This document shows positions 1,696 to 22,487 of a stretch of DNA of 64,000 nucleotides, piece after piece. The stretch is from contig NZ_CP138332.1 in NCBI RefSeq assembly GCF_033955345.1, forward strand, positions 1,736,001 through 1,800,000, in the 5' to 3' direction. This DNA is from Sphingobacterium bambusae (GTDB lineage: Bacteria > Bacteroidota > Bacteroidia > Sphingobacteriales > Sphingobacteriaceae). Below the pieces are notes generated by a model. The model worked only from the letters and a program-made list of their open reading frames with translations. It was not told the DNA's origin and ran no database searches. Made by a program: the position numbers and the translations under genes. The stretch's first letter is position 1, and each line of letters opens with the position of its first letter.

Positions 1696-1697
1696 GG

Positions 1698-1732
1698 AAA
1701 AGTAAAAATGAAAAACTAAAAATTAAAAAAAC
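1698..1732. repeat. Five degenerate heptads (AAAAnnA) in permease 1/2 spacer
   Basis: Starting two bases after the permease 1 stop, five consecutive 7-bp units fit AAAAnnA (last unit AAAAAAC). Equivalent five-unit runs occur in three other permease spacers of this cluster. Confidence 0.6.
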
Positions 1733-1807
1733 CGACAGGGGGGTGACAAGTATGGTGCGAATTATTCAAGAGCAAATGCCTCGTCTACGGTCTAAATACG
1801 AAGTATC

Positions 1808-4204: not shown

Positions 4205-4244
4205 AAGAAACACACGAACGGCAACAGATTTAAACGAAAAAAGT

Positions 4245-6653
4245 ATGATCTATCATTTAAAAATAGCGCTGCGTACTTTGATACAAGGAAAGCTATATAC
4301 AGCCATCAGTATCTTGGGATTGGCATTAGGCATTTTCTGCTCCTTACTGGTATCCACGATCGTGTTGGATGAGTTTTCGTACGACAAAGACTGGAGCCGA
4401 TCGGCAAATATTTTCAGGTTACTGTCCGTAATGGAACGCGGCACCGAAACAATCGACAAGACCGGGGCGGCTTATGCCGGACTGGCGCCCGAACTAAAGC
4501 GCACATTCCCCGAAGTGGAAGAATACAGCGAGCTCTATGTAAGCCCCATTGACATGAAATTGACGCCGGAAAGCAACCAGCATATCAATCTAAAGGCCTT
4601 GTATACGGACAGTGCCGTACAGCACCTGCTAGACATCGAACTGCTTCAACAGCAGGATCTGCAGCCCACCAAGCCTGTCCAGAAGATTATCATCTCCGAG
4701 CATGTCGCGAAGTCCTATTTTCCAAATACAGATCCGCTGGGCATGGAAATCTATGACCTGCCTCGATACGAATCGAAAGCCAACCGCTATCTGATCGCTG
4801 GCGTGATGAAAGACATGCCGGCAAACACACACCTCAGGGCGGATATCGTGATCCTGAAAGACCGAACAGAGAAAGCCCTTGAAAAGGCAGATCACGGCAT
4901 GTATGTCCGGCATTACCTCTTGCTCAAATCAGGCACAGAACCGAAGGCTTTTGAACAAAAAGTAAACCGCTGGTACCGTGATTACGTGACGAGCAAAAAC
5001 CCGACCCGCTATGAGCTGCAGCCGATCCAGGATGCGTACCTACGATCGGATTTCCCGGCCTACCAAGTGCATAAAGGAAACCTGCAGCAAAACTACATCT
5101 TCATAGCGGTGGCGGCCCTGCTCCTGCTGATTGCCTGTATCAATTTCGTCAACCTCAGTACCGCGCGAGCCAGCAGTAGGCTGAAAGAAACGGGCGTAAG
5201 AAAAGTACTTGGCGCAAGCAAGGCTACGTTGATCAGACAGTTTTTGTTAGAATCGATGCTTGTTTTCGGTGTGTCCACCGTCCTGTCCCTACTCTTGTAT
5301 ACCTTGGCCCTACCCTTTGCAGAAAAGTTCATCGAGCACCCTATCGCCTTTACGCTTTCCAACAACTTGGGCTACTTCGGCGCGATTTGGGCTATCGTTT
5401 TTCTGATCAGCTTACTCACGGGGCTGTATCCGGCAGTCTTTCTATCGAGTTTTCAAACGGTGAACAACAACATCAACAATTTATTGAAAACACCACGAAA
5501 TAAACGCAGCAAGCTGCGCGAAGCGTTGGTCGTCGTGCAATTCAGCCTTTCCATCGTTATCCTTATCGCCCTGTTTGTCATGAGCAAGCAGATAAATTTC
5601 ATGAAGGACAAAGATCCCGGCTTCGACAGCAAGGGCTTGATTAGTATTGACCACATCTCCTTTGATGAGAAGTCTACAGCCTTCAAGGAGGCACTGAACG
5701 CAAACCCTAATATACAGTCGCATAGCTTCAGCAGCTGGCTCCCCATGGATGGCGCTGGCTACATGACACGATATATGGAAGACCCCGGTAATCCCGGACA
5801 CAAGGTGGAGATGTGGTACATCGCCGGTGAACCAAACCTCGCTGAAACGCTGGGTCTGCGATTGAAAGAAGGACGTTTCCTATCAGCAACACGCCCCTCG
5901 GATGCCATCGAGGCCGACAACTACGACGACGAATCGAACGCTATGCGCCCAGCTGTTCTGACGGCAAGCACCGCCAAACGACTGCATGTCGCCCAACTCG
6001 ACCAGGAGATGGGTAAAGAAAAGATTGTGCCTGTTGGCATCGTGGAGGACTTCAACAGCGAATCCCTGCATAAGCAGCTGGTGCCTACCGTTATTGTGGG
6101 TTACCGCAATCCGCAGTACGGTGCCTTGCTTATCCGCGTACAGGACGGGAAAGAGCAGGAGGTCATGCAGTACGTCGCTCGCGTTTGGAAAGACCTTTAT
6201 CCCGATAAATTATTGGATATGGAGCTGATGAAAGATAAACTACAGGCGCAATATAAAGCCGAAGAGCGCATAGAAGCACTGTTTCGTGCCTTCAGCATCT
6301 TGACCATGTTTTTAGCCGCATTGGGCGTATTCGGATTGATCGTCAACACCGTCAGTCTCCGTGTCAAGGAAATAGGCATCCGCAAGGTCATGGGTGCATC
6401 CGTTTTACGAATCATGACGATGTTGTCCAAAGACTTTCTGAAGCTAACGCTCCTGGCCGCACTTCTCGCCTCGCCCCTGGCTTGGTGGGCCATGCACAAC
6501 TGGCTGGATAACTTCGCCTACCGCATCGAGATCAATCCTTGGCTATTTGTAGCCGCAGGCCTCATAGCGGTGCTCATTGCCCTGCTAACGGTCAGCATAC
6601 AGGCCTTAAAGGCCGCACGCGCAAATCCAGTAGATAGCTTAAGGGATGAATAA
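4245..6653 (+). CDS. MacB/FtsX-type ABC transporter permease (permease 3)
   Basis: 802 residues with the same two MacB-like periplasmic domains and two FtsX modules as its neighbours. The N-terminus is MIYHLKIALRTLIQGK; after the first helix comes DEFSYDKDW, the equivalent of the E-[LF]-S-[FY]-D motif shared by most of the set. Coupling segments are LKETGVRKVLGAS and VKEIGIRKVMGAS, and the C-terminus is ANPVDSLRDE. The 40-bp spacer before it is the shortest in the block and the only one without the 7-bp repeat run, so this gene may depend most on read-through from permease 2. Function beyond membership of the family cannot be read from sequence. Confidence 0.95.
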   Translation: MIYHLKIALRTLIQGKLYTAISILGLALGIFCSLLVSTIVLDEFSYDKDWSRSANIFRLLSVMERGTETIDKTGAAYAGLAPELKRTFPEVEEYSELYVSPIDMKLTPESNQHINLKALYTDSAVQHLLDIELLQQQDLQPTKPVQKIIISEHVAKSYFPNTDPLGMEIYDLPRYESKANRYLIAGVMKDMPANTHLRADIVILKDRTEKALEKADHGMYVRHYLLLKSGTEPKAFEQKVNRWYRDYVTSKNPTRYELQPIQDAYLRSDFPAYQVHKGNLQQNYIFIAVAALLLLIACINFVNLSTARASSRLKETGVRKVLGASKATLIRQFLLESMLVFGVSTVLSLLLYTLALPFAEKFIEHPIAFTLSNNLGYFGAIWAIVFLISLLTGLYPAVFLSSFQTVNNNINNLLKTPRNKRSKLREALVVVQFSLSIVILIALFVMSKQINFMKDKDPGFDSKGLISIDHISFDEKSTAFKEALNANPNIQSHSFSSWLPMDGAGYMTRYMEDPGNPGHKVEMWYIAGEPNLAETLGLRLKEGRFLSATRPSDAIEADNYDDESNAMRPAVLTASTAKRLHVAQLDQEMGKEKIVPVGIVEDFNSESLHKQLVPTVIVGYRNPQYGALLIRVQDGKEQEVMQYVARVWKDLYPDKLLDMELMKDKLQAQYKAEERIEALFRAFSILTMFLAALGVFGLIVNTVSLRVKEIGIRKVMGASVLRIMTMLSKDFLKLTLLAALLASPLAWWAMHNWLDNFAYRIEINPWLFVAAGLIAVLIALLTVSIQALKAARANPVDSLRDE

Positions 6654-6695
6654 TAGAAAATAAAAAAATACGAAGAGTGGACACAAGAACGGAAG

Positions 6696-6730
6696 TCTAC
6701 GATCTAACATCTATAATCTACATACTACAA
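6696..6730. repeat. Five degenerate heptads (TCTAnnA) abutting the permease 4 start
   Basis: Five consecutive 7-bp units approximate TCTAnnA, with the last two degenerate. The run ends one base before the ATG at 6732. The unit differs from the A/T-only units in the other spacers, but unit length and copy number are the same. Confidence 0.6.
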
Positions 6731-6731
6731 C

Positions 6732-9137
6732 ATGATCACGAACTACATAAAAATCGCTTGGCGAAACCTCTTGAAAAACAATGGATATTCGTCGATCAAC
6801 ATCCTCGGCCTAGCTATAGGGCTGGCATGTTGCCTATTGGTTGTTCTGTACATCCAAGACGAGCTTTCCTTTGACCATTATCATACCAAAAAGGACCGCA
6901 TCTATCGTGTAGTGCACGATTGGAAAGAAAAAAATGGGATGGAAACACAGCAGATATGGGGTAATGCGCCCGTAGGCGCAGCGCTGAAAGCCGATTTTCC
7001 AGAGGTGCAAACGGTCGTGCAGTTTTCCGGTCAGATATCCATCCTGCTGAAGCAAGGCGAAAAGGCATTTCAGGAAGAACGCGTGTTCTGTATGGACTCC
7101 ACGGCTTTTGATATGTTCAGCTGGACATGTATTGCAGGCAATCCCCACACCGCATTGGCCGCACCTTACTCTATCGTATTGACCGAGACTATGGCCAAGA
7201 AATACTTTGCCGACAGCAATCCTATTGGCCAAACCTTGGAAGGAGGCGTCACCGGCGGCCGCGCCGCGCCCGGCATATACACAGTCACGGCCGTCATCAA
7301 AGACCTCCCTTCCAACTCCCATTTCACCTTCGATGCCTTACTCTCCATGAGTTCGTTTCGGCAATCTTGGGCTGAAGTATTCGAGCAATGGGGTTACGTA
7401 GATTTCTATACCTACCTGCTCTTGCCCGACGGCTACGACATCCACAAACTGGAGAAACAGGTACCCGATTTTATTGCGCGCCATCAGGCATCTCAAGATG
7501 GTAAATACAGCATTCACTTCGAACCCATGCTGGGCGCCTATCTAAACTCCAAAGCAGACCGCCAACCTGGCCCTGTGGGAAACATGCAAAATATCTATAT
7601 TTTCGCGATCATCGGCGCTTTCATCCTCTGCATCGCCTGCGTCAATTTTATGAACCTCGCTACCTCCCGTTCGCTGGAACGCGCCAAGGAGGTCGGCGTA
7701 CGTAAAGTTGTGGGCGCCAGCCGAAAAAACTTGATCGTGCAGTTTATGAGTGAGTCGCTCCTGCTCGTGGTCTTCGCAGCACTATTGGCCTTGGCACTCG
7801 TCATCTGCTCATTGCCTTTTATGGAGATGTTTGCCGGCAAACGCTTTGCGCTGTCCAGTTTATTCCAAATGCAAACCTTCAGCCTCTTTATCGGTATTGT
7901 CTTGGTCACCTCCTTGGTTGCGGCCAGCTATCCCGCATTTGTATTAGCAAACTTCAAGCCGGTCAAAGTGTTTAAAGGTTCATCTGGCTTAGCGATGGGC
8001 GGGACTTGGCTGAGAAAAGGATTGGTCGTTTTCCAATTCGGTTTGTCCATCGCGTTGATTGCGGGCACCTTGATTGTCTTTTCACAACTGCGCCACCTAC
8101 AACAAACGGATCTAGGCTTCCAGAAAACCCAAATGCTAGTCATTGATTTTAACTACGACAATCAGGTCTTGCAAAACCTGGATGCCATCAAACAAACCTT
8201 TGCCCAGCAAAAGGATGTCCTCTCCGTTTCCGCCTCCCGAAGTATCCCGGGCTCTTATTTCCCTAATGCTGGCACACAGATCGAGCTGCCCGACGGTGAA
8301 ATGAAACCCTTAAACCAAGCCATATTCGAGGTGGATGTCGACTTTATTGCGAACTTCGGTATACAGATGGCCGCCGGCCGGCCCTATTCTAGGGACTTCC
8401 CCGCCGACACCATCAACTCACTGGTCATCAATGAGGCAGCGGCCAAACTGTGGGGCTACCCCGATCCAGAAAAGATCATTGGAAAGCGTTTCGCACAATG
8501 GGGACGTGAGGGGCAGGTCATCGGCGTCGTGAAAGACTTCAACTACCTCTCGCTCCATCAAAAAATAGAACCGTTGACCCTACGCCTAGAACCGTTGAGC
8601 AGCAAGTTCATAACCTTGAAGATACAACAGGCCAGCAATCCGGAAACAATCGCTAAACTGGCCGACATATGGTCCACCGTAGCGCCGCATCGCCCTTTTC
8701 TATACAGCTTTCTTGACAATAGTTTCAACCGCCAATATGAAGCAGACTATCGCTTCAGACGACTGTTCTCCGCGTTCTCGGGCTTGGCCCTTTTCATCGC
8801 CTGTCTAGGCTTGTTGGGCTTGGCAACCTACACGGCGCAGCAACGCACCAAAGAAATAGGCGTGCGTAAAGTGTTGGGCGCATCTACCTTTAGTATCGTC
8901 AAGTTGCTCTCTATCGACTTTCTGCGCTTGGTCATCATCGCTCTATTTATTGCCGTTCCCTTGGCCTGGTGGGCCATGAATCAATGGCTCAGTGACTTTG
9001 CCTATCATATTACCATTCCATGGTGGATTTTTGCCATCGCTGGCGCCAGCTCCTTGTTTATCGCCCTCTTTACCATCAGCGGTCAAGCGATACGCGCTTC
9101 CATGGCTAACCCGGTAGATAGCTTAAGAGATGAGTAG
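6732..9137 (+). CDS. MacB/FtsX-type ABC transporter permease (permease 4)
   Basis: 801 residues. MITNYIKIAWRNLLKNNGYSS leads into the first helix, followed by DELSFDHYH and the first periplasmic domain. FtsX modules carry AKEVGVRKVVGAS and TKEIGVRKVLGAS; the C-terminus is ANPVDSLRDE. Its first coupling segment is nearly identical to that of permease 1, which suggests these two are relatively close paralogues. The ATG at 6732 is chosen because the peptide aligns with the N-termini of permeases 2 and 5. Shadow frames on both strands were discarded. Confidence 0.95.
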   Translation: MITNYIKIAWRNLLKNNGYSSINILGLAIGLACCLLVVLYIQDELSFDHYHTKKDRIYRVVHDWKEKNGMETQQIWGNAPVGAALKADFPEVQTVVQFSGQISILLKQGEKAFQEERVFCMDSTAFDMFSWTCIAGNPHTALAAPYSIVLTETMAKKYFADSNPIGQTLEGGVTGGRAAPGIYTVTAVIKDLPSNSHFTFDALLSMSSFRQSWAEVFEQWGYVDFYTYLLLPDGYDIHKLEKQVPDFIARHQASQDGKYSIHFEPMLGAYLNSKADRQPGPVGNMQNIYIFAIIGAFILCIACVNFMNLATSRSLERAKEVGVRKVVGASRKNLIVQFMSESLLLVVFAALLALALVICSLPFMEMFAGKRFALSSLFQMQTFSLFIGIVLVTSLVAASYPAFVLANFKPVKVFKGSSGLAMGGTWLRKGLVVFQFGLSIALIAGTLIVFSQLRHLQQTDLGFQKTQMLVIDFNYDNQVLQNLDAIKQTFAQQKDVLSVSASRSIPGSYFPNAGTQIELPDGEMKPLNQAIFEVDVDFIANFGIQMAAGRPYSRDFPADTINSLVINEAAAKLWGYPDPEKIIGKRFAQWGREGQVIGVVKDFNYLSLHQKIEPLTLRLEPLSSKFITLKIQQASNPETIAKLADIWSTVAPHRPFLYSFLDNSFNRQYEADYRFRRLFSAFSGLALFIACLGLLGLATYTAQQRTKEIGVRKVLGASTFSIVKLLSIDFLRLVIIALFIAVPLAWWAMNQWLSDFAYHITIPWWIFAIAGASSLFIALFTISGQAIRASMANPVDSLRDE

Positions 9138-9174
9138 TGCGTAAAGGTTAGTTACTGCTTCGGTAGCAAAGCAT

Positions 9175-9209
9175 ATTTTTTACTTTTTAATTTTGACTTT
9201 TTAATTTTT
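9175..9209. repeat. Five degenerate heptads (nnTTTTT) before permease 5 start
   Basis: Five 7-bp units of the form nnTTTTT; the last four form a 14-bp tandem duplication at 9182-9195 and 9196-9209. The run ends three bases before the ATG at 9213. Confidence 0.6.
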
Positions 9210-9212
9210 AAC

Positions 9213-11621
9213 ATGATAACGAACTACATAAAAATTGCTTGGCGGTCTCTAATTAAGGCCAAAGCACTGAGTGCAATCCACATCTTTGGACTGGCTGTGG
9301 CCATTGCTGCCTCTACTTTGCTTTACCTGACAGCCATGTTCGAGCTGTCTTTCGATAATTTCCACGAGCACCGCGAGCAGGTAGGCTTGCTATACACCGA
9401 AACACAGCCAGAGGAAGGAACGAAACGAAGCTCCACCGTATCCTCCCCCTTAGCTCCCGTATTAAAAAACGGCTTTCCAGAGATGGAGTATGTCAGCCGA
9501 TACATGAACAGCGGTATTATCCTAAGAAACGGGGACAAGCAACTGGAAGCAAGCAACAAATATGTTGACCCCGACTTCCTATCGATCTTCAGCTTTCCCT
9601 TTGTAGCGGGAAACACATCGGCCTTAAACGAGCTGGATAACCTGGTGATCGATGAAACCACGGCCAGCAACCTTTTCGGCAGTAGCTCCGTCATCGGCAA
9701 ACAGGTCGAGGTCTACCAAAACGGAAAATGGGGATCAAAGACCATCAGCGCCGTGCTCTCTAAAATATCTAAAAATTCCAGCTTGACATTCAACACGCTT
9801 TTGCGTTTTGAACATAAACCAAACTACCAAGCCAATCTCAACGATTGGGGGCACGAAGACCACAGTGTTTTTGTAAAACTTAAATCGGGCTCAATAAACG
9901 ACGAGGCCTTTACCAAAAAAGCAAAGCCTTTTGTGGATCTGTATTATAAAGATGAGATTAATATGCGCAAGCGCGATGGCTGGGGCGTGGACAAAAACGG
10001 CGCTTACGTAGCCCTCCACCTGCTGCCTTTAACCAAGTATCACCGCAACGATCTCGATGTTGGCCACGGCTCAGCTCCCTTGTTTCCATGGATCTTGTTG
10101 ATTATTGCAGGGCTGATCCTTTTCATTGCCTGCTCTAATTTCATCAACCTATCCTTAGCCAACTCCTTTGCTAGAAATAGAGAAATAGGCACACGGAAAA
10201 CGTTGGGCGGCACCACGGCACAGCTGATGTTACAACTTTGGACAGAATCCTTCTTACTGTGTCTGCTGGCTACCTTAATCGGCATCGGACTTGCTTGGGT
10301 GTTGCTGGGCCAGTACAATGCGATTATGAACTACAGCCTCTCCATCGCCCAGTTGCTATCGCCATTAAATCTTGTTTTCTTCTTGCTGACCTTCCTCCTG
10401 CTAACCATGCTATCTGGAGGATACCCCGCTTGGCGAATTGCAAAAGCCAATATTATACAAACATTAAAAGGAAAAGCATCCATCAAAAGCAGCAAGCTGC
10501 GCAATAGCTTGACCGTACTGCAGTTTTCAATCGCCATTGTCTTAATCTTGGCTACCATCATTATCGGTATCCAATTGCGCTACATCGCCGAGCGCCCTTT
10601 AGGCTTTGACAAAACGGAAGTGATCAGTATCCCCATTGGCGAAGGGATAGACCATGAAAATGCTGTACAACAAATGCGCGTAGCTCTTGCGGCACAGCCT
10701 TGGGTAGAAAGCGTCAGCGCATCAGATCTCAACCTAGGCCGTGGCCGCGATGGATCCATGTCGACCAGCCGCTTTGGCTTTGATTTCGAAGGACGACAGG
10801 TCTACACCAATTTCATGCGCGTAGATTACGACTACCTGAAGACCCTCGGTATCCAGCTCCTGCAAGGGCGAGACTTCGACCGCAGCTTCTCCAACGATAC
10901 GCTTACCGTCATCATCAATAAGCAGATGGCGGCGCAGCTGGGCGGTGCTGATAAGGTATTGGGCAAAAACCTCAGCATGGATGGAAATCCGCAGATCATC
11001 GGCATTATCGACGACTTCAACTACCAGGATCTACGCAGAAAGGTGGAACCATTGACCTTATCCATCAACCCCAACATCTTCTCCGTTGCTTATATCTTTG
11101 TGCGCGTGAAGACCGACAATCTGAGCGAGAGCATGACCAAGCTAGAGGAAATCTGGAAAAAGGTAAATCCAAAGGCTAACATTGCCGCATCCTACCTCGA
11201 TGAGAATACGCAGAATATGTATCGCGACGAGCAACGCTTCGTCCAGATCGTCATCAGCGGTGCGGTTGTAGCCATAGCGATATCCTGCCTCGGCCTTTTT
11301 GCATTGGCTCTACTGATGATCAACAAACGTGTAAAAGAAATCGGAATACGAAAAGTATTGGGTTCCTCAGTCATGCAGATCGTTGTTTTACTATCCAAAG
11401 AGTTTGTCAAGCTGATGCTCCTAGCTTTTATCATCGCGTCGCCGCTAGCCTGGTGGATGATGAACGCTTGGCTGCAGAGTTACGCCTACCGCATCGAAAT
11501 CACCTGGTGGATGTTTGCCGCAGCTGGTGTACTGACAATTGGTATCGCGCTTGCAACCATCGCCTGGCAAACGTTGCGCGCCGCAACCAGCAATCCAGTC
11601 GACAGCTTGAGAGATGAGTAG
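9213..11621 (+). CDS. MacB/FtsX-type ABC transporter permease (permease 5)
   Basis: 802 residues, N-terminus MITNYIKIAWRSLIKAK, then FELSFDNFH after the first helix. The first coupling segment, NREIGTRKTLGGT, is more divergent than in the other members, while the second, VKEIGIRKVLGSS, is ordinary. The C-terminus is SNPVDSLRDE. Domain order is the same as in the neighbours. The divergent first segment could alter contact with the ATPase; this is inference. Confidence 0.94.
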   Translation: MITNYIKIAWRSLIKAKALSAIHIFGLAVAIAASTLLYLTAMFELSFDNFHEHREQVGLLYTETQPEEGTKRSSTVSSPLAPVLKNGFPEMEYVSRYMNSGIILRNGDKQLEASNKYVDPDFLSIFSFPFVAGNTSALNELDNLVIDETTASNLFGSSSVIGKQVEVYQNGKWGSKTISAVLSKISKNSSLTFNTLLRFEHKPNYQANLNDWGHEDHSVFVKLKSGSINDEAFTKKAKPFVDLYYKDEINMRKRDGWGVDKNGAYVALHLLPLTKYHRNDLDVGHGSAPLFPWILLIIAGLILFIACSNFINLSLANSFARNREIGTRKTLGGTTAQLMLQLWTESFLLCLLATLIGIGLAWVLLGQYNAIMNYSLSIAQLLSPLNLVFFLLTFLLLTMLSGGYPAWRIAKANIIQTLKGKASIKSSKLRNSLTVLQFSIAIVLILATIIIGIQLRYIAERPLGFDKTEVISIPIGEGIDHENAVQQMRVALAAQPWVESVSASDLNLGRGRDGSMSTSRFGFDFEGRQVYTNFMRVDYDYLKTLGIQLLQGRDFDRSFSNDTLTVIINKQMAAQLGGADKVLGKNLSMDGNPQIIGIIDDFNYQDLRRKVEPLTLSINPNIFSVAYIFVRVKTDNLSESMTKLEEIWKKVNPKANIAASYLDENTQNMYRDEQRFVQIVISGAVVAIAISCLGLFALALLMINKRVKEIGIRKVLGSSVMQIVVLLSKEFVKLMLLAFIIASPLAWWMMNAWLQSYAYRIEITWWMFAAAGVLTIGIALATIAWQTLRAATSNPVDSLRDE

Positions 11622-11653
11622 GGAGTTACTGCCTGCTTAGATTCGGAGCTACA

Positions 11654-11688
11654 GGTTTTTAATTTTTATTTTTGACTTTTTAATTTCT
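11654..11688. repeat. Five degenerate heptads (nnTTTTT) before permease 6 start
   Basis: Five 7-bp units, mostly nnTTTTT, end two bases before the ATG at 11691. This spacer also shares short blocks such as AGTTACTGC with the spacer upstream of permease 5, suggesting the spacers were copied together with the genes. Confidence 0.6.
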
Positions 11689-11690
11689 TC

Positions 11691-14099
11691 ATGTCCAGCA
11701 TATACCTAACAACGAAAATCGCTTGGCGCAATTTGCGCAAGCATAAAGTACACAGCAGCATCAACATTGTAGGCTTACTGTGCAGCATGGCTTTTGTGCT
11801 GTTGATAAGCGCCTACATATGGCAGGCCTATCAGGTAAACGCTGGATTACGAAACAAGGATAGGCAATTTGCTTTACAAAGCAGTTATAAACAACCCGGC
11901 ATAGGGCTCGACCTGACGACAGTCGGCGCCTTGCCGCGTGCGCTTAAGGAGGAGTATCCAGCGCTCGTTGCCAACTACTACCGGCTCGATGGCCTGACCT
12001 GCATCATCTCCAACGGCACGGAAGTATTTGAAGAAAACGTATCCCTAGGCGATTCCACCCTACTCAGCATGTACGGGTTTTCCTTGCTACAGGGCAATGC
12101 CAATACAGCCCTATCCAATCCCTTTTCGGTCGTCATCGACGAACAGGCGGCTATGAAATATTTCGGAAAGAAAGAAGCTGTGGGTGAGCGACTGCGTATT
12201 CGCAACTTTGCGGGAGAGCAGCGTGATTTCGAAGTGACCGCCGTAATCCATCAGGCTTCGGAGAATTCTATCATGCGCTTGATGCCCAGTATGCAGACCG
12301 CGATTTTCCTGCCCATGAGTAGTGAGCAATATTTCGGACGCGACGTAAACAACTGGCAGAACCTATGGATTGCTGGCTTCATCGAGCTTCAAGAGGGCGT
12401 CACACCCGAGCAGCTCCAGCAGCCTATAAAAAAATTACTGGAACAGCATGCAGATAAACAGATTGCCGAGAACCTGCAGCCACAGCTGAAGCCCCTTGCG
12501 ACCTACTACCTAGACGACAATCAGGGAGCGATCAGACAGCTGCTTTTGGTATTAAGTTTGACAGCGGCCTTCCTCATCATCATGGCCATTATCAACTTTG
12601 TGAACCTCAGCATCAGCCAAAGCCTCACGCGGCTGAAGGAAGTAGGCCTGCGCAAGATCTTAGGCAGCAGCCGTAAACAGCTTATCGTGCAGCTTCTCGC
12701 AGAATACTGCTTGATGGTATGTATAGCAGGTCTGCTTGCACTGGCACTCTATCCGCTGCTGGCGCCTTGGTTTTCATCTGTGATGATGAAAGACCTTCCT
12801 GCCCTATCCGCGCTTCCTTTCCGCTTTTTCGTTCTGTTCTTCGCGGGCAATGTGGTTCTTGGCCTTCTAGCAGGTATTTATCCAGCACTGAAATTATCGA
12901 GCAATCCGGTTGTCAGTGCGGTCAAGAATCAATTGAACGAATATGGCGGCAAGCACCTTATCCGACGATCGCTCCTATTGCTGCAGTTTGCCGTAGCTGT
13001 GCTGGTGCTCATATCATCGGTCATCATCGCTAGGCAAGTGGATGTATTCATCAACGGACAGCTGGGCTACAACAAAGATTATTTGCTTACTGCGCAGGTG
13101 CCACGCGATTGGTCTGAAAGCGGCTTGCACAATATCCAGCAGGTACAGCAAGAGCTTAGGCAGCTAGCGCAGGTAAAAGATATCAGCCTCTCCTACGGCA
13201 TACCCAATTCCTTTGGCAATGGGATACAAACGGTTAGTAAGGTGGGCGCTGAAGAAGGAGTCGACGCCTTGGTCATCACTTCCGATCAGCATTTCGCAGC
13301 AACTTACGAGATACCTCTATTGGCAGGGCAGTTTTTCGCAACACAAGAAGATCCCTCCATTTCCACCAAAGTGGTGATTAATAGAAAGGCCGCGCAAACA
13401 CTGGGCTACGCCACAGTCGATGAAGCCCTCGGGCAATCGATACAGCTTTTCGATGGCGAGTTTACCGGAACTATTGCCGGCGTCACCGAAGATTTCTATG
13501 CAAACTCGATGCACAGCGCATCACCCGCTGTTGTTTGGGTTCCCGTGCAGGCCAGCATGCAGTACCGCTTTCTGAGCATCCGGCTCCAAGCAGGTCCCAT
13601 TGCCCCTGCCGTCGCTGCCTTGGAACGCCGATGGAAAGAGCTGATGCCCGACGCTCCGTTTCAATACAAGTTCATCGACGAGACAATCCAAGCTATGTAT
13701 AGCACCGAAATACAGCTAAAACGCGCCGCCCAGACGGCCACAGCAATATCGATGCTCATCGTTCTGCTCGGCGTTATCGGCCTCACATCGCTTTCTATCA
13801 ATCTGCGCCTGAAAGAGATTGGAATCCGAAAGGTTTTAGGAGCCAACCTCCGCAATATGGTGCTGCTGTTCAGCAAGGAATTTTTCGTCATTTTTGCGGT
13901 AGCCTTATGTGTCAGTATTCCTCTTACCTATTTCTTCATGCACCGGTGGCTGATGAACTATGCGGTAAAGATCGATCTGCAGCCGCTATTATTTATCATC
14001 CCAATCATCGGTTTATCCACAGTTTTACTTTTGTTTATCGCCGGGCTAGTGCTGCGAGCCAACACCCACAATCCTATAAAAAGCCTACGGGACGAGTAA
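11691..14099 (+). CDS. MacB/FtsX-type ABC transporter permease, divergent (permease 6)
   Basis: 802 residues, last gene of the first block. It keeps the double MacB/FtsX plan, with coupling segments LKEVGLRKILGSS and LKEIGIRKVLGAN, but differs from its neighbours at the ends: the N-terminus is MSSIYLTTKIAWRNLRKH, the E-[LF]-S-[FY]-D motif after the first helix is missing (WQAYQVNAGLRN instead), and the C-terminus is HNPIKSLRDE. These are signs of an older duplicate or a specialised role. A hairpin terminator follows within 20 bp of the stop. Confidence 0.93.
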   Translation: MSSIYLTTKIAWRNLRKHKVHSSINIVGLLCSMAFVLLISAYIWQAYQVNAGLRNKDRQFALQSSYKQPGIGLDLTTVGALPRALKEEYPALVANYYRLDGLTCIISNGTEVFEENVSLGDSTLLSMYGFSLLQGNANTALSNPFSVVIDEQAAMKYFGKKEAVGERLRIRNFAGEQRDFEVTAVIHQASENSIMRLMPSMQTAIFLPMSSEQYFGRDVNNWQNLWIAGFIELQEGVTPEQLQQPIKKLLEQHADKQIAENLQPQLKPLATYYLDDNQGAIRQLLLVLSLTAAFLIIMAIINFVNLSISQSLTRLKEVGLRKILGSSRKQLIVQLLAEYCLMVCIAGLLALALYPLLAPWFSSVMMKDLPALSALPFRFFVLFFAGNVVLGLLAGIYPALKLSSNPVVSAVKNQLNEYGGKHLIRRSLLLLQFAVAVLVLISSVIIARQVDVFINGQLGYNKDYLLTAQVPRDWSESGLHNIQQVQQELRQLAQVKDISLSYGIPNSFGNGIQTVSKVGAEEGVDALVITSDQHFAATYEIPLLAGQFFATQEDPSISTKVVINRKAAQTLGYATVDEALGQSIQLFDGEFTGTIAGVTEDFYANSMHSASPAVVWVPVQASMQYRFLSIRLQAGPIAPAVAALERRWKELMPDAPFQYKFIDETIQAMYSTEIQLKRAAQTATAISMLIVLLGVIGLTSLSINLRLKEIGIRKVLGANLRNMVLLFSKEFFVIFAVALCVSIPLTYFFMHRWLMNYAVKIDLQPLLFIIPIIGLSTVLLLFIAGLVLRANTHNPIKSLRDE

Positions 14100-14616: not shown

Positions 14617-15234
14617 CTAAACCACATAACAGCTTACAACCGAGCTGTAAGTTATCGTGGGGTTACTGCTCGTGTAGGCCACGCGAAACTCATGTTGCTC
14701 CAAAGACTGCAATCCGCTGATTTCACAGGAAGACTTCGTGGTGAACAGGATGTTCCACAACACATCGCCCACCTTTCGGTATTCAAAACGACATCCAGTG
14801 GCTTTCTTCCACACGTCCACCCGACAGCGCACGCATCCTGGCCGTTGCATCTGAACCTGCACGCGTAAGTTGTGTGGCTTGGGCGCTGCACCAATTGTTG
14901 CATAAGGCTTATTGGTCGCGAAGCCTGCCGATAGAATAATCCAAGGATCACCTTGGGCCACCTGTGCTATATACAAAGACAACCGGTACAGCTGTTCCTT
15001 GTGGATACGCAACAACTGATTTTTGATAGCCACACAGCGCATATCACGAAATTGTGCTTCGGCCATAGCGCGTGACAGCCGGTGCAAAGTGCCTTTCAAC
15101 ACCGATAACGGAGGTTCACAATCCGGAAAAAGAGATACATTCTCCTCCATACGCGCAACTACATTGTTTGCATAACGCAGGAAATTCGCTTCCCGCATTT
15201 TCTTAAATTTTAAAACAGGTTTTATCATAACCAT
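14617..15234 (-). CDS. Fibronectin type III domain-containing protein
   Basis: 205 residues. The N-terminal ~115 residues are mostly helical (MIKPVLKFKKMREANFLRYANNV); residues ~120-205 look like a fibronectin type III-like beta-sandwich (PKPHNLRVQVQ, then FEYRKVGD and HEFRVAYTSSN). I recognise the general layout, 'FKKMREA' start, helical part, 'ILLSSGFD'-like turn (here IILSAGFATNK) and FN3, as a recurrent Bacteroidota family of unknown function. No signal peptide is visible, so it is probably cytoplasmic. Two nearby ATGs (15234 and 15228) are possible starts. Confidence 0.75.
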   Translation of the reverse strand: MVMIKPVLKFKKMREANFLRYANNVVARMEENVSLFPDCEPPLSVLKGTLHRLSRAMAEAQFRDMRCVAIKNQLLRIHKEQLYRLSLYIAQVAQGDPWIILSAGFATNKPYATIGAAPKPHNLRVQVQMQRPGCVRCRVDVWKKATGCRFEYRKVGDVLWNILFTTKSSCEISGLQSLEQHEFRVAYTSSNPTITYSSVVSCYVV

Positions 15235-15296: not shown

Positions 15297-15364
15297 AAAG
15301 GGTATCAAATTACGCCAATCTTTTCGGCTTCGGTCGAAATTTTTGGCGTAATTTGATACCCTTT
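15297..15364. repeat. Long inverted repeat with 22-bp perfect arms
   Basis: Arms 15297-15318 and 15343-15364 are perfect reverse complements; the 24-base loop holds a smaller TTTCG/CGAAA stem. It lies 63 bp upstream of the FN3 gene start and is not at the 3' end of any plus-strand gene. It may be a REP-like element, a leader hairpin of the FN3 gene, or a remnant of a small mobile element. Confidence 0.75.
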
Positions 15365-15667
15365 TCCAAAAGATCACAATTGAAAAAGCGGCTTTACGAC
15401 ATGAAAAAGCACCTTTCCACTATGTTTTATTTCTTTTCACTATGCAGTTGACGCATTTCCCATAAGTTTTGCCTTTTTACCCATATCATTTGTCTGCTTT
15501 CTATGGGTTGACAGCAAGCTTCACAACCGCATCAACACATCTCCTACAGGAAATATCTCATTTTCATGCAGAAGTCAAACAGATGCATATTGAAAGGCAG
15601 CATTCCCTCTGGAAAAAGAAATCGATGCCCTCGCTTTTTGTTAGAGGTTGTCCGCAGACGAACGCCT

Positions 15668-15687
15668 ACTGTTCGATATCGAACAGT
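15668..15687. promoter_or_regulatory. 20-bp perfect palindrome, candidate activator site
   Basis: Each half is ACTGTTCGAT or its complement, with no spacer. Its centre is about 88 bp upstream of the transcription start predicted from the sigma-54 promoter at 15740-15755, a distance typical for binding sites of NtrC-family enhancer-binding proteins. The binding protein is not identifiable from this window. Confidence 0.6.
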
Positions 15688-15739: not shown

Positions 15740-15755
15740 TGGCGCAGCGCTTGCA
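15740..15755 (+). promoter_or_regulatory. Sigma-54 (RpoN) type promoter of the second permease block
   Basis: The sequence TGGCGC-N5-TTGCA has the invariant GG-N10-GC spacing and differs from the RpoN consensus TGGCAC-N5-TTGC at one position. Transcription would start near 15766, giving a leader of about 29 nt before the ATG at 15795. RpoN promoters need an ATP-hydrolysing activator; the palindrome upstream is a plausible site for it. Confidence 0.65.
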
Positions 15756-15794: not shown

Positions 15795-18179
15795 ATGAAC
15801 AGTATATCCATAGCATGGCGCAATATTCGAAAAAACAGGGGATTCTCACTATTGAATCTCAGTGGGTTGATCATAGGCATTACCTCTTTTCTGTTACTAG
15901 CTGCGTATATCCTACATGAGCTGAGTTACGATAACTTCTTACCCAATGCAGAGCGAATAGCCTACGTCTCCTATGCCTACAAGTCTGCTGATGACAACGA
16001 ATTTATCCAAGCTTCCACCACCCCCACGGCCGTTGCGCCGACGCTTGAAAAGGAATTTGCCGAGGTGGAAACCGCTGTCCGTATCTATCCCTACAATAGC
16101 GAAGGTTTAGTAAAAAAAGGAAACCAAGAAATTAAGGAAACACAGTTCCGGTTTGCCGATGAAGCTTTTTTTCAAGTAGCCGACTATCCGTTCTTGCAGG
16201 GCGATAGCAAGACAGCCCTTGCCGAGCCCTACCAAATCGTGCTGACGCAAGCCTACGCCGACAAATACTTCCCCAACCAAGATGCCCTAGGGCAAATTCT
16301 GCAAATCGATGGGCAGCCTTGGAAAGTAAGTGGCGTAGTCCCCAACCCTCCATCCTACACGCAACTTCCCTTTGCGGCCATACTGTCGAATAAACACCTG
16401 ACGCGCTACCAAGAACCTGTATGGCACAGTGCCAACGACATCACCTTGGTATTGCTGAAGGATAAAAAAGCTATTCCCGCCCTAGAGAGCAAGAGCAATG
16501 CTTATATAAAAACAATCTTTGCCGACGTTTTTGAAAGCGGAGCCGCCTTAGAACTGAAAATAGAACCTATTACAGATATCCACCTACATTCCCAGATCGG
16601 TAGCGGAAACCTGCTATATGTCTATATATTTGCCGGTCTAGCCATAGGCATCATCCTGATAACAGGCGTCAACTTCGCCAATCTATCGCTGGCCCGATCC
16701 ACGGAGCGTGCTAAAGAAATTGGCGTCAAGAAGGTGTTGGGAGCCAGCCGCACCAACTTATTCTTTCATTTCCTAATCGAATGTGGTCTTTTGGTACTTA
16801 TCGCGTTCGCCATTTCGCTATGCCTAGCCCATGTGTTACTGCCATTTTTTGCGCAATATCTGGGAACGTCCATCGCACTCGATATCAGCTCCAGCAATAT
16901 GCTGTTCCTTGCTATCCCTATTTTCGCATTGACCTTAGCCTTGCTCGCCGGAAGCTGGCCGGCCTTAGTGATTTCCGCATTCAAGCCTATACAAAGTTTA
17001 AAAGGCACCACAAAAGCAAATAAAGGCGGTTTTGCATTGGGAAATGTACTTATCGTCATCCAATTCACCATCTCTACGCTCTTTATTATCGCGACCTTGG
17101 TAACAGCGCAACAACTGCACTATATACAAACCAAAAATACCGGATTGGACCGCTCCCAGATTGTTGTACTTGATGGGGAACTGCTCACCGATAGCGAAAG
17201 GACAACCTTAAAAAACAAACTCCTTGCTCAACCATCTGTCAAGGGATTCACCGCATCATATGATTCCCCAGTGAACATACAGGGTGGATACAACATCGGC
17301 TATGTGGAAGGGAAAAAGGCAGACTTTCAAATGAGTGTCACCGCCATCCCGATCGAAAAAGATTTCGTTCCGGTTTTCGAAATTCCCGTGCTAGCCGGAG
17401 AAAACCTGAACGACGGCGATATCGCACGTGCACGCGATACCAGCAATGCACGCAGCTACAGCTTTATCGTGAATGAACAACTGGTTAAGTCATTGCAATG
17501 GACGCCACAGGAGGCCGTTGGCAAACAAATCAATTTAAATGGCCGCCTAGGACGCATTAAGACCGTGGTACAGGATTTTAATTTCGCATCCTTACGTGAA
17601 GACATCAAGCCTGTGGTTCTTTTCCCGGAATATAACTACTTTGGAAACATCTATGTAAAGGTTGCTTCGGGGAGCAATATGCAGCAGTCCATCGGCGATA
17701 TTCAATCGGTATGGAAAGAGGTAAAACCACAGGCTCCTTTCAACTACCACTTTCTGGATGACGACTTTGCCAACCTCTACCAACTGGAAAGGCAAACCAG
17801 CCGCACCATGTTGCTCTTCTCGTTCATCACCATCGGCATTGCCTGCTTAGGTCTTTTTGCGCTCGCCGCTTTCCAAGCGCAGCAACGCATCAAAGAAATT
17901 GGCATCCGTAAAGTATTGGGCGCATCGACGGGTAAAATCGTGATGCTACTGACGGCTGATTTTGTGAAGCTGGTGATCATCGCTTTTCTATTGGCAGCGC
18001 CACTAGGCTACTGGATCATGCAGAACTGGTTGCATAATTTTGCCTTTCGGATATCGGTAGCATGGTGGACGATCCTGATCGCGGGCATCTTGGCGGTGTT
18101 CGTAAGCCTGATTACCATTAGCGGGCGTGCCTTCCGTGCGGCACGCACCAACCCGATCAACAGCCTGCGCGACGAATAA
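15795..18179 (+). CDS. MacB/FtsX-type ABC transporter permease (permease 7)
   Basis: 794 residues, first gene of the second block. N-terminus MNSISIAWRNIRKNRGFSL, HELSYDNF after the first helix, coupling segments AKEIGVKKVLGAS and IKEIGIRKVLGAS, C-terminus TNPINSLRDE. The domain plan equals that of the first block. It is preceded by the sigma-54-type promoter and followed after 69 bp by the exported repeat protein, which suggests an operon of permease, repeat protein, permease and ATPase. The ATG at 15795 is chosen because the peptide aligns with its paralogues. Confidence 0.95.
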   Translation: MNSISIAWRNIRKNRGFSLLNLSGLIIGITSFLLLAAYILHELSYDNFLPNAERIAYVSYAYKSADDNEFIQASTTPTAVAPTLEKEFAEVETAVRIYPYNSEGLVKKGNQEIKETQFRFADEAFFQVADYPFLQGDSKTALAEPYQIVLTQAYADKYFPNQDALGQILQIDGQPWKVSGVVPNPPSYTQLPFAAILSNKHLTRYQEPVWHSANDITLVLLKDKKAIPALESKSNAYIKTIFADVFESGAALELKIEPITDIHLHSQIGSGNLLYVYIFAGLAIGIILITGVNFANLSLARSTERAKEIGVKKVLGASRTNLFFHFLIECGLLVLIAFAISLCLAHVLLPFFAQYLGTSIALDISSSNMLFLAIPIFALTLALLAGSWPALVISAFKPIQSLKGTTKANKGGFALGNVLIVIQFTISTLFIIATLVTAQQLHYIQTKNTGLDRSQIVVLDGELLTDSERTTLKNKLLAQPSVKGFTASYDSPVNIQGGYNIGYVEGKKADFQMSVTAIPIEKDFVPVFEIPVLAGENLNDGDIARARDTSNARSYSFIVNEQLVKSLQWTPQEAVGKQINLNGRLGRIKTVVQDFNFASLREDIKPVVLFPEYNYFGNIYVKVASGSNMQQSIGDIQSVWKEVKPQAPFNYHFLDDDFANLYQLERQTSRTMLLFSFITIGIACLGLFALAAFQAQQRIKEIGIRKVLGASTGKIVMLLTADFVKLVIIAFLLAAPLGYWIMQNWLHNFAFRISVAWWTILIAGILAVFVSLITISGRAFRAARTNPINSLRDE

Positions 18180-18248: not shown

Positions 18249-19328
18249 ATGAAAAATATAGCAGTAGCAGCATTTCTATTTTTGGCCATGAGCACCTGCG
18301 CGTTGGCGCAAACCGTAAGTAAAAAGATATTTACTTGGGAGGCCAGTGACGACAACGGCAAAACGAAGCTCACCGTAAAAGGCGATGTAAACATCGGCGA
18401 CGATGACCAGCATATCGAATCGCTCTCCAAAAATGGATCCATCAGCTTTGAGCAAAAGTCCAATAAATTGGAGATTACCACGGCATCGGATGGCACACTG
18501 ATCTATCGCATCAACAGAAAAGAAAAGAATACGCTGGACGCCAATGATGAAAAACTCCTAAAAAATGCGCTGGAGATGATGATCAGCCGCGGTATGAATG
18601 CCGAAGCGCGCACAAAACGTATCTATGCGAAAAAAGGAACGGCAGGTGTGCTCAACGAGCTTCCCAAACTGCATGGCGACTATGCCCGTCAAAAATACCT
18701 CTCTACACTATTGACACTCGGTATTAGTAAGCCTGAAATGACGAGCATCCTAGAAAGCAGCAGCAGCTACCTATCTAGCGACTACTACGTTGCCGAGCTC
18801 TTGTCTGACGTAATGAAAAACTATCTATTGGAAGACGCCACCTCCAAGGCTTACCTAAACCTCGTTGCCAACATGAAGTCGGATTACTACCAACATACGA
18901 CATTACAGAAGTTGATGAAAAACGAACTCAATAGTGAGCAAACAGCATCCGTCGTCGGGATTATCAAAGCGATGAAATCAGACTACTACCAATCCGAAGT
19001 GTACAAAGACCTGTTAAAGCAGGAATCGTTTGGCGGTGTAGCCTTTAACGAAACCTTGGATCTTGTCTTTGCTATGAAAAGCGATTATTACAAAACCGAA
19101 ATCATCAAAAACATGATCAAAAGATCGCTGACGGAAGCGGATTGGACACGCCTCATCGGCTATGCCAACAAAATAGGCTCCGACTATTACCAGTCCGAGC
19201 TGCTACTGAACATTGCCGAAAAAATGCCCGACAACGAAAACTTGAAAAAAATCCTGTTTGAAGCGGCCAAAGGAATAAAATCGGAACATTACTACGGGAA
19301 GCTAATGCGGAAAATTGCAGCATCATAG
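18249..19328 (+). CDS. Exported protein with seven SDYY-type 33-34-residue repeats
   Basis: 359 residues. A signal peptide ends at about residue 20 (STCALA-QTVSKK), so the protein is probably periplasmic. Residues ~25-90 look beta-rich (TKLTVKGDVNIG, KLEITTASDGTLIYRI). From residue 143 to the end the sequence is helical and repetitive: GDYA at 143, SDYY at 177, 211, 244, 278 and 311, and SEHYY at 345, a regular spacing of 33-34 residues, each followed by a helix such as QSEVYKDLLK. This suggests an alpha-solenoid. The period resembles TPR-length repeats, but the TPR consensus is not seen. I do not recognise the family. Placed between two permeases of one likely operon, it may be a periplasmic partner or sensor of the transporter; that role is inference. 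Confidence 0.88.
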   Translation: MKNIAVAAFLFLAMSTCALAQTVSKKIFTWEASDDNGKTKLTVKGDVNIGDDDQHIESLSKNGSISFEQKSNKLEITTASDGTLIYRINRKEKNTLDANDEKLLKNALEMMISRGMNAEARTKRIYAKKGTAGVLNELPKLHGDYARQKYLSTLLTLGISKPEMTSILESSSSYLSSDYYVAELLSDVMKNYLLEDATSKAYLNLVANMKSDYYQHTTLQKLMKNELNSEQTASVVGIIKAMKSDYYQSEVYKDLLKQESFGGVAFNETLDLVFAMKSDYYKTEIIKNMIKRSLTEADWTRLIGYANKIGSDYYQSELLLNIAEKMPDNENLKKILFEAAKGIKSEHYYGKLMRKIAAS

Positions 19329-19379: not shown

Positions 19380-21770
19380 ATGGCAAATAGCTTCTTTACG
19401 TTATTTTGGAGAAATTTATGGAAGAACAAGTTTTTTTCTTTGATAAACATCACAGGGCTGGCTTTAGGCTTTGCGGGCTTCATACTTTCTTATCAATACA
19501 TCAATAAGGAAACCAACTACGATCGTTGGAACAAAAATATAGATAACATCTATTTGGTGGGACTTCGTTTGGCAGGTAACTATACAGACCAAACTCCTTC
19601 CGCATTGGCCAGTGCCATTCAGGCTAACTTCCCAGAAGTGATGCGTGCAGGCCGTAAGATAAACTATTTCTACGGAGACTATCCTATTTTTGGCGAAGAA
19701 ACCATATACGTAAAGAAGGCAATTGCCATCGACTCTGCCGCCGCCCGCATTTTCGATATTGAACCGCAAGAAGGAGCCTTGTACAAATCTGCAGAGCAGC
19801 AGGAAGCGACAATGGTGACGGCCGACTTAGCAAAAAGGCTATTTCCGCAAGAGCAGTCATTTGGAGAACCCAAAAAGGTGCCTGTTTTGGCACTGAACAT
19901 GGGCATGGAAGAAACAATCTATGGGATCAGTAAATACAAAGGTCCCTCCATTCTTGATTTTGACTTGCTATTTATCCGAGAAATGGGCGGCGAACAAGAT
20001 CTATTCACCTACCAAACGTTTATTCAGGTCAGGCCTGGCACTGATCTTCCTTTATTGGAATCTAAGATCAACCGTTTGTTTCAGGAGAAGATCTCGAAAC
20101 ACGCGGACAACACTGCTTCAACTTTTTCCAACGGATCAATATACCTAGATCCATTGGCCAACCTACACCTACGTCCTCGGCACGGATCCAACAGTGCCTA
20201 CCTTGGCATTTGGGTATTGGGTGTGTTATCGATATTAATTTTGGCATTGGCGGCAGCTAACTTCACCAATCTGATGTTAGCACAAGCAGACAAAAGGGCA
20301 AAGGAAATCGCGTTAAAAAAAGTTTTTGGAAACAACCGTTTCCGTGTTGCTTGTGAATTCCTATTTGAAGTATTCTTGCAATGCCTGCTTGCCGTTTCAA
20401 TCGCATTGCTGTTGTTGGCTTTTTGCGGTAACATTCTGCAGAGCAAGTACAATGATGATCTAAGCAAACAGATCTTCCATAGCACAACATACCTACAGCT
20501 CAGCCTTGCCTTGGTATCGACCTGCTTGCTATCCGGCCTCTATCCTGCATTTATCCTGTCGGGCTACAAGCCCGCTCGTATGCTCAAAGGCGCCTTGATC
20601 TATGACCCGAAACGATCCCCGCTAAGAAACGGATTATTGGCTTTCCAGTTTGTCATCGCCATCGTATTTCTTGTAGGCGTTTTTACGGTGCAAAATCAAA
20701 TAGATTACATGCGTCATGCGGAGAAAGGGTTTGAGCCTGGACAGGTTATCAGCTTCAAAAGTGTAGGCCTCTATTATGATGGAAAACTGAATGGTACTTT
20801 TCAAGATTTCAAAAACCGATTAGCACAGAAACCCAGCATTGCCTCTGTCGCTGCGGCCAGCAATGTACCGGGAGGAGCCGAAGCGCCTCCAAAAAAACAA
20901 TTTACCCATATAGATGGAAAAGCAGAGATGGATCATATCGCCGTCGACGTCAACTACTTCGAGACACTACAGATACAGAGGATACAAGGTTCGACGGCAC
21001 TTTCTCCAGAACAACTTTTGGCCGACAGCAGCAAGCACTATGCCGTCGTTAATGAAACAGCTGTTAAACAGCTGGGCATGGCAAATCCGATCGGTGCAAA
21101 GGTTAGTGGATGCAAAACAGACTTTACCATAGTAGCCGTGGTTGCCGATATGAAAGCCTACGGCTTTGAGCGTCACATCGCCCCATCGCTATATTCATTT
21201 AAAGACGAATGCGGCCCCGGCCATCTAAAGATAACCTTACTGGTTAAAGCAAGAGCTGGAAAAAATGAAGAAGCTATTAAAGCCGTAGAAGAAGAATGGG
21301 AAAAAAATCCGAATGCGGAGGCTCTTCCCTTGGATTATAACTTCATGGATCAACAGTACAACCTGCTGCATGCGAGACAGGAACGCTTGGGACAAGCGCT
21401 ATACGGATTTTCCATACTATCGCTTATTATTGCCTTAATGGGCCTGTTTAGCATATCCGCTTTCCAAATCAATGCTCGCCAAAAGGAAATGAGTATCCGT
21501 AAAATATTGGGAGCAAGTGCCACAACACTTTTTGTTCAGTTGAACGGCGGGTTTCTCCGGATTATTGGTATTTCTATGCTCATAGCCACTCCAATAAGTT
21601 ATCTGCTTTTGTATCTTTGGTTAGCTAATTTTGCATACAAAGAACCGATAAACAGCTGGATCTTCATTTGGATCGGAGGCCTTTTTACTTTGATGTCGGC
21701 ACTCACCATCTCCTTCCAATCGATAAAGGCAGCACGATCAAAACCTATCGATAGCTTGCGCGATGAATAG
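19380..21770 (+). CDS. MacB/FtsX-type ABC transporter permease (permease 8)
   Basis: 796 residues with N-terminus MANSFFTLFWRNLWKNKFFSLINITGLALGFAG. After the first helix it has KETNYDRWN, a variant of the usual motif. Coupling segments are AKEIALKKVFGNN and QKEMSIRKILGAS, both more divergent than in the first block, and the C-terminus is SKPIDSLRDE. It lies 51 bp after the repeat-protein gene and 51 bp before the ATPase gene, so it is the permease most tightly linked to that ATPase. Confidence 0.95.
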   Translation: MANSFFTLFWRNLWKNKFFSLINITGLALGFAGFILSYQYINKETNYDRWNKNIDNIYLVGLRLAGNYTDQTPSALASAIQANFPEVMRAGRKINYFYGDYPIFGEETIYVKKAIAIDSAAARIFDIEPQEGALYKSAEQQEATMVTADLAKRLFPQEQSFGEPKKVPVLALNMGMEETIYGISKYKGPSILDFDLLFIREMGGEQDLFTYQTFIQVRPGTDLPLLESKINRLFQEKISKHADNTASTFSNGSIYLDPLANLHLRPRHGSNSAYLGIWVLGVLSILILALAAANFTNLMLAQADKRAKEIALKKVFGNNRFRVACEFLFEVFLQCLLAVSIALLLLAFCGNILQSKYNDDLSKQIFHSTTYLQLSLALVSTCLLSGLYPAFILSGYKPARMLKGALIYDPKRSPLRNGLLAFQFVIAIVFLVGVFTVQNQIDYMRHAEKGFEPGQVISFKSVGLYYDGKLNGTFQDFKNRLAQKPSIASVAAASNVPGGAEAPPKKQFTHIDGKAEMDHIAVDVNYFETLQIQRIQGSTALSPEQLLADSSKHYAVVNETAVKQLGMANPIGAKVSGCKTDFTIVAVVADMKAYGFERHIAPSLYSFKDECGPGHLKITLLVKARAGKNEEAIKAVEEEWEKNPNAEALPLDYNFMDQQYNLLHARQERLGQALYGFSILSLIIALMGLFSISAFQINARQKEMSIRKILGASATTLFVQLNGGFLRIIGISMLIATPISYLLLYLWLANFAYKEPINSWIFIWIGGLFTLMSALTISFQSIKAARSKPIDSLRDE

Positions 21771-21821: not shown

Positions 21822-22487
21822 ATGATAAAACTAGAAAACATATTTAAATGGTATAATGTCGGCGGGACACGCTCCTTTATTTTGAAGGACATTAACCTCC
21901 ACATTGAGGAGGGCGACTTTGTTTCCATCATGGGCCCGTCGGGGTCGGGTAAGTCGACCCTGCTGAATGTTATAGGCCTTCTTGATGAACCCAATGAAGG
22001 CAAATATTACTTTATGGACGAAGATGTGCTGGCCATGAAAGCCAAGAAGCGTACGGCGCTCTTTCAATCGCACATGGGCTATGTTTTTCAATCGTACCAC
22101 TTGATCGACGAATTGACGGTATATGAGAATATCGAAACGCCATTGATATACAAAGATCTGTCAGGCAAAGAGCGGAAAGCGATCGTTGCCGATATGCTCG
22201 ACCGCTTCGGTATTGTTGGGAAGAAAGACCTTTTCCCAGCGCAGTTATCGGGCGGGCAGCAGCAAATCGTCGGTATTGCGCGTGCTTTGGCGGCTTCGCC
22301 CAAACTGTTACTTGCCGATGAGCCCACCGGAAATCTGAACTCCAAGCAGGGCGAAGAGGTGATGCAGCTGTTCAAACAGCTCAACGAAGATGGCGTGACC
22401 ATCATTCAGGTAACGCACTCGGAGAAAAATGCCGAGTATGGCAAACGCATCATCAATATGCTGGATGGACAGCTGAAGCTTGACTAA
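21822..22487 (+). CDS. ABC transporter ATP-binding protein (LolD/MacB type)
   Basis: 221 residues, a single cytoplasmic nucleotide-binding domain. Walker A GPSGSGKST is at 38-46, the Q-loop Gln at 90, signature LSGGQ at 142-146, Walker B LLLADE at 162-167 and the switch His at 199. Family membership follows from the LLNVIGLLDEPNEG and DEPTGNL segments typical of the LolD/MacB/FtsE group. The helix after the signature reads QQQIVGIARAL where the family usually has QQQRVAIARAL. It is the only ATPase near eight permeases and is predicted to energise one or several of them by driving periplasmic domain movement (mechanotransmission). Confidence 0.95.
   Translation: MIKLENIFKWYNVGGTRSFILKDINLHIEEGDFVSIMGPSGSGKSTLLNVIGLLDEPNEGKYYFMDEDVLAMKAKKRTALFQSHMGYVFQSYHLIDELTVYENIETPLIYKDLSGKERKAIVADMLDRFGIVGKKDLFPAQLSGGQQQIVGIARALAASPKLLLADEPTGNLNSKQGEEVMQLFKQLNEDGVTIIQVTHSEKNAEYGKRIINMLDGQLKLD

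Follow-up and report, generated by a model that had tools for sequence, protein, structure and literature searches.

Export loci of the MacAB-TolC and darobactin type combine FtsX/MacB permeases, an ATPase, a HlyD adaptor, an OEP protein and a sigma-54 response regulator in one locus. The array described here, from Sphingobacterium bambusae, shares all of these components with them, and differs in having 14 permeases, two ATPases and, as an extra component, an exported solenoid protein. In solenoids of the TPR, HEAT and ARM types, units of two helices and about 34 residues stack to form a superhelix; the model of the window protein has the same construction, whereas the family to which it belongs, here called SDYY, has its own motif, S-[DS]-x-x, ahead of helix A. 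Possible analogues of the solenoid protein are the CpxP/ZraP-type periplasmic feedback proteins, with which it shares the properties of a small exported partner that is encoded with a membrane signalling system and predicted to be induced by that system. It differs from them in fold, consisting of a beta domain and a long solenoid, and in having no Pfam match. The window, i.e. the whole stretch of 64,000 nucleotides that was analyzed (contig NZ_CP138332.1, positions 1,736,001 to 1,800,000), provided the starting point for the comparison of this protein with its homologues and their gene neighbourhoods.

Repeats and predicted fold of the solenoid protein

The solenoid gene lies on the forward strand (18249..19328), and its open reading frame of 359 aa was confirmed. 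A sequence-only reading of this DNA had placed seven motifs in the protein at a period of 33-34 residues, and all were found exactly where it had put them: GDYA at residue 143 (18675..18686), SDYY at residues 177 (18777..18788), 211 (18879..18890), 244 (18978..18989), 278 (19080..19091) and 311 (19179..19190), and SEHYY at residue 345 (19281..19295), all on the forward strand. The period is equally clear in the self-alignment of residues 121-359, where the best lags were 67, 34, 101 and 33; lag 34 scored +0.37 per residue, as compared to a maximum of -0.07 in 2000 shuffles (lags 20-49). SDYY itself occurs five times versus 0.007 expected from composition, and at least two copies were present in 0/20000 shuffles. 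Since the SDYY codons differ between repeat copies and the units have a mean identity of 20%, the repeat array must be old, and the same two features rule out a recent tandem duplication as its origin.

The AlphaFold2 model, for which five natural sequences served as input, has a mean pLDDT of 86.3 and a pTM of 0.79. Residues 1-25 are disordered (pLDDT under 50) and include a predicted signal peptide (residues 1-21, ending in CALAQ; 18249..18311, forward strand). They are followed by an N-terminal domain of eight beta strands (residues 29-93; 18333..18527, forward strand), a helix at residues 98-113 and an alpha-alpha solenoid with units of 33-34 residues, also seen in the self-alignment (residues 118-358; 18600..19322, forward strand). 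The model of the protein alone thus agrees with the signal peptide, beta-rich domain and subsequent repeats that had been proposed from the sequence. In all seven units the model helix begins one residue past the first letter of the motif, at residues 144, 178, 212, 245, 279, 312 and 346, and this first residue (Ser; Gly in unit 1) looks like a helix N-cap in the model. The window protein carries the export signal, beta domain and 33-34-residue repeats by which we define the SDYY solenoid family.

Relatives of the beta domain also stand alone as proteins of approximately 120-130 aa, which would fit a role of the protein as an enzyme or inhibitor in the envelope, active through its beta domain and with the solenoid serving as a scaffold. 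In 18 members, however, G45 is the sole invariant residue of this domain, leaving no apparent catalytic set, and no enzyme match was found; we regard such an activity as very improbable. The other invariant residues lie further on (R121, G130, E137, Y150 and S211). The stand-alone beta domains (L013-L025, L109 and L110) come from a sister genus and from the family of G681, and many of them have lipoprotein-like signal sequences by eye.

The solenoid protein, a bacterial protein that is exported and built of repeats, belongs to no named family. Pfam, NCBIfam, PADLOC and PDB sequences contain no credible match to it, and the proposal that it represents an undescribed repeat family holds against these libraries. 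The repeats had also been said not to follow the TPR consensus. Indeed, none of 18 members had a Pfam TPR match at E up to 0.1, on which ground we reject a TPR identity, while a true TPR protein (L085) scored 3.6e-54 against TPR with the same tool; Pfam HEAT and ARM matches were likewise absent from the 18 members. The whole protein gave many generic helical-repeat matches in a fold search, with Z values of 10-13.5 that are not clearly above those of unrelated helical repeats. The beta domain alone gave only middling matches in the PDB, the best being a polo-box domain; at a Z of 7.8, this is within the range of common arrangements, and we do not claim a polo-box likeness. By Pfam, the protein has no HlyD/biotin-lipoyl domain and is not a HlyD/MacA adaptor; nor is it itself BlaR1, its 359 residues containing neither an M56 HExxH protease nor TM helices. 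We did not find a description of the family in literature on SDYY repeats, BlaR1 repeats and LytTR pseudokinases.

A number of other matches were set aside. Those to D-Ala-D-Lac ligase, MOZART1 and similar profiles are weak, far under the cut-offs and attributable to chance, as are weak PHROGs matches and the UvrA matches at E ~1e-3, whose sequences are excinuclease proteins (L026-L028, L039, L040). Two plasmid-borne matches were not counted as relatives, since Pfam identifies one as a TPR protein and the second is another kind of repeat protein.

The permease array and its predicted sigma-54 control

The solenoid gene is embedded in an array of 14 permeases that accounts for 28 of the 38 FtsX matches of the genome. 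Permeases 1-6 occupy 220..14099 on the forward strand, permease 1 starting upstream of the window (its full length is 815 aa in L087). Permease 7 (15795..18179, forward strand; MacB_PCD and FtsX by Pfam) is the first gene of a predicted sub-operon that continues with the solenoid gene, permease 8 (19380..21770) and a MacB/LolD/DarD-like ABC ATPase (21822..22487), both also on the forward strand. The gaps of about 50-70 bp reported earlier were measured as 69 bp to permease 7 and 51 bp to permease 8. The ATPase is kept downstream of the solenoid gene in Sphingobacterium-like loci. At the head of the array stands a MacA/HlyD adaptor, together with an OEP protein, a sigma-54 response regulator and a kinase divergent to it; this true adaptor of the locus matches HlyD_3. 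The distance from the solenoid gene to the genes of this kinase and response regulator is approximately 38 kb in Sphingobacterium.

Other features of the region may be mentioned. Two genes on the reverse strand without Pfam match (14113-15234) break the array between permeases 6 and 7 and have similar counterparts in L002, and the gap between these permeases also contains a long inverted repeat (15299-15367; GGGTATCAAATTACGCCAA ... TTGGCGTAATTTGATACCC). In two Sphingobacterium-like loci (L003:9013-9819 and L046:9414-10256), the gene immediately ahead of the solenoid gene encodes a sigma-70-like protein of 268-280 aa. Further along the window, the reverse strand encodes an M56-family protein (35562-36809) that has a TonB-like C-terminal domain by eye and no solenoid repeats.

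The palindrome TGTYCGN4CGRACA occurs exactly five times in the 5.56 Mb genome, versus once for the reversed control. Three of the five are located at the two promoters of the locus, two before MacA and one before permease 7, the latter being also upstream of the solenoid gene. This copy, TGTTCGATATCGAACA (15670..15685), is a predicted upstream activator site of the sigma-54 response regulator; its tandem partner 21 bp upstream (15649..15664) has one mismatch and is likewise a predicted activator site, and the same sites are found in relatives. A sigma-54-like -24/-12 element, TGGCGCAGCGCTTGCA (15740..15755, forward strand), lies 40 bp before the start of permease 7 and has a counterpart in L045. 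In L003, L046 and L048 the site pair directly precedes the solenoid gene. The window contains two sigma-54-like matches versus 3.3 in shuffles, i.e. fewer than expected, and the argument is thus one of position and conservation, not of number. At the head of the locus, the promoter preceding MacA has a poor -12 element only, and Bacteroidetes-type promoters of the form TTTG-N19-TANNTTTG showed no excess over chance. Promoter predictions in Bacteroidia have found COG0577 permeases to be enriched for sigma-54 control (PMC12316311). Taken as sequence predictions, which all regulator sites in this work are (LytTR and sigma-54), these sites suggest that the solenoid gene is co-regulated with the transporter in this genome.

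The remaining two exact palindromes each precede one of two paralogous, near-identical exported proteins of 141 aa (Lumazine_bd_2, PF12893), encoded at positions 2675167 and 2715125 of the genome (L198:7457-7882 and L199:7416-7841). Both genes have the palindrome pair and a TGGCAAAGC[GT]GTTGCA sigma-54-like element upstream, and would on this basis seem to belong to the regulon as well. The 14-permease export array would in this manner be tied to a small predicted sigma-54 regulon.

Distribution and settings of the homologues

Homologues are sparse across the sampled phylum-level group. Within the family of the window's genome, 24 of 301 genomes were matched at E up to 0.001, and only eight of these, including the window's own, have a full-length homologue; the remaining matches correspond to the beta domain alone or to the chance UvrA matches. 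Profile searches matched 15/395 genomes of the phylum, some in the beta domain only, as well as 10/149 in the family of G681, 34/157 in family f8 and 12/199 in family f4. The homologues range in length from 326 to 579 aa and vary in repeat number.

Gene neighbourhoods were read from mechanical ORF calls with homology tags. The transporter setting is one clade, and membrane signalling is the commonest setting in this sample. FtsX/MacB permease arrays (class a) surround the homologues of Sphingobacterium-like loci, of one other genus, of Parafilimonas and of a genus-mate, G783. An FtsX permease adjoins the homologue on the same strand in only 12/63 cases, a value that is not a frequency, the sample being weighted toward two families picked for their LytTR loci; in a phylum-wide draw, 2/10 full-length homologues adjoin permeases by our reading of the neighbourhoods. 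The sequence-only reading had asked whether homologues always neighbour MacB-like permeases, and had named a majority without such neighbours as the outcome that would speak against it; this majority is what was found. In a maximum-likelihood tree of the 63 homologues, all 10 class (a) members fall on one side of a branch with an SH-aLRT of 99, and the LytS/LytTR context (class b) requires two changes. Being unrooted, the tree does not give a direction of context change. In three class (b) loci (L051, L161 and L168) the solenoid gene is also directly preceded by a permease gene, and three homologues (L103-L105; class e) stand alone, with no recognised signalling gene beside them.

These data bear on the possibility that the protein belongs specifically to the ABC exporter as a periplasmic component, serving in substrate binding or as an adaptor from the permeases to TolC. 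The close spacing within the array, the predicted co-regulation and the persistence of the permease-linked clade through several genera would all fit such a role. However, most homologues have no permease neighbour, an adaptor of the HlyD/MacA type and an OEP/TolC protein are already present in the locus, Pfam gave neither a HlyD nor a substrate-binding match, and permease 8 is missing beside the solenoid gene in L002 and L046. We consider this role unlikely. The earlier suggestion that the protein works with the transporter thus stands for the permease-linked clade, in the form of predicted co-regulation, and fails as a general rule.

Membrane signalling partners and possible function

The closest recurrent gene partner of the solenoid family is the LytS/LytTR two-component operon. 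In all 44 testable loci the order is SDYY - LytS - LytS - LytTR on one strand, with the SDYY gene at the head. The first LytS kinase has the PH[YF]LFN box in 36/39 loci (L158-L197) and the ENAVKH N-box pattern in 28/39, while the phospho-acceptor histidine box (PHxLFN) was found in 0/39 of the second LytS-like proteins and the ENAVKH pattern in none; on account of both absences, the second gene looks like a conserved pseudokinase. Crude hydropathy in four loci predicts that the LytS partners span the membrane with four TM helices and have short loops, i.e. no periplasmic sensor domain. Class (b) therefore differs from LytS/LytTR operons in adding an exported-solenoid gene and a second LytS-like protein that lacks the box in 39/39 loci. 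This recurrent four-gene cassette with its His-less partner is present in two families of the sampled phylum, and we did not find it described in the open-access literature.

LytTR regulators are reported to recognise 9-bp direct repeats, in most cases with a spacing of 12 bp (PMC6193735). In the region preceding the solenoid gene, 38/44 class (b) loci have a pair of TTCANTAC-like direct repeats that attains the score cut at a period of 21 bp; the mean best score is 12.25 versus 8.8 in shuffles, and other lags (17-20 and 22-25) attain the cut in 3-8 of 44 loci. Lag 26 is also raised (31/44 loci), which we tentatively attribute to overlap of the motif with itself, since TACA resembles TTCA. The repeats with the 21-bp period are predicted LytTR sites.

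A second signalling setting (class d) was found in two genomes, where the homologue stands beside BlaI and BlaR1 (L057 and L058). The BlaR1 ORFs themselves match the full-length family profile (E 2e-20 and 1e-14), which by this criterion makes their C-terminal repeat module homologous to the solenoid family. A profile of the 34-residue unit, the search originally proposed, was weak on the BlaR1 repeats and missed the divergent PSSGD repeats of the two genomes, which the full-length profile finds. From the order of TM helices and HExxH site (Pfam M56), the repeats come after both. In the BlaR1 topology the region past the last TM helix is the position of the sensor domain, and the fusions render the sensor idea directly testable. 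Unlike these M56 sensor-transducers of the BlaR1/MecR1 type, in which the repeats are followed by a stand-alone homologue, the window protein has no protease, no TM part and no BlaI neighbour. Similar repeats may also occur in proteobacterial M56 proteins, which were given no weight in the analysis. A further signalling setting (class c) was found in L054, L056, L106 and L108, where the homologue lies beside an ECF sigma factor, a small protein that is likely an anti-sigma factor and a DUF6249-like TM protein. One of the stand-alone beta-domain genes (L109) also adjoins DUF6249 and ECF sigma/anti-sigma genes.

Could the protein be simply an output of these regulators? As a stress-induced periplasmic effector or chaperone, it would, like Spy or Skp, protect or escort components of the envelope and regulate nothing, the regulators merely inducing it. 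The position of the solenoid gene first behind the predicted LytTR sites, its distance from the kinase in Sphingobacterium and the presence of two small secreted proteins in the same predicted sigma-54 regulon are in line with this, as is the fact that peptide binding is common among solenoids. On the other hand, the repeats are also fused to BlaR1 in the sensor-domain position, and linkage is conserved to the kinases themselves, beyond the promoter. An effector or chaperone is on balance unlikely, though less so than an exporter component.

We favour, tentatively and at somewhat less than an even chance, a regulator-induced periplasmic auxiliary protein that acts as sensor or feedback component of cell-envelope signalling and was recruited once into a MacAB-TolC-type array, because signalling is the commonest setting and the transporter setting one clade. 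This sensor/feedback reading starts from the observed sequence, repeats, conserved operons and BlaR1 fusion, combined with a predicted fold, predicted export and predicted regulator sites. Following export via its signal peptide, the protein would use the beta domain and solenoid to bind an envelope ligand such as a wall fragment, a peptide or an outer-membrane protein in the unfolded state, and/or to bind a membrane signalling partner on its extracytoplasmic face; ligand, partner contact and direction of feedback are what we infer here. The gene would be induced by the regulator whose pathway the protein serves, LytTR in the commonest operon and the locus-encoded sigma-54 response regulator in Sphingobacterium. 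After the single recruitment into the 14-permease array, the protein would be co-produced with permeases 7 and 8 and the ATPase, on which it may report or which it may modulate. Since the kinase and response regulator are so distant in Sphingobacterium, it could there be purely output. The unnamed exported repeat family gains a consistent genomic setting from these comparisons.

A broader version, which we consider doubtful, is that the exported solenoid is a portable extracytoplasmic co-receptor that senses one common envelope signal and has been plugged into four chassis, namely LytS/pseudo-LytS/LytTR, ECF sigma/anti-sigma, BlaI/BlaR1 and the sigma-54-controlled MacB permease array.
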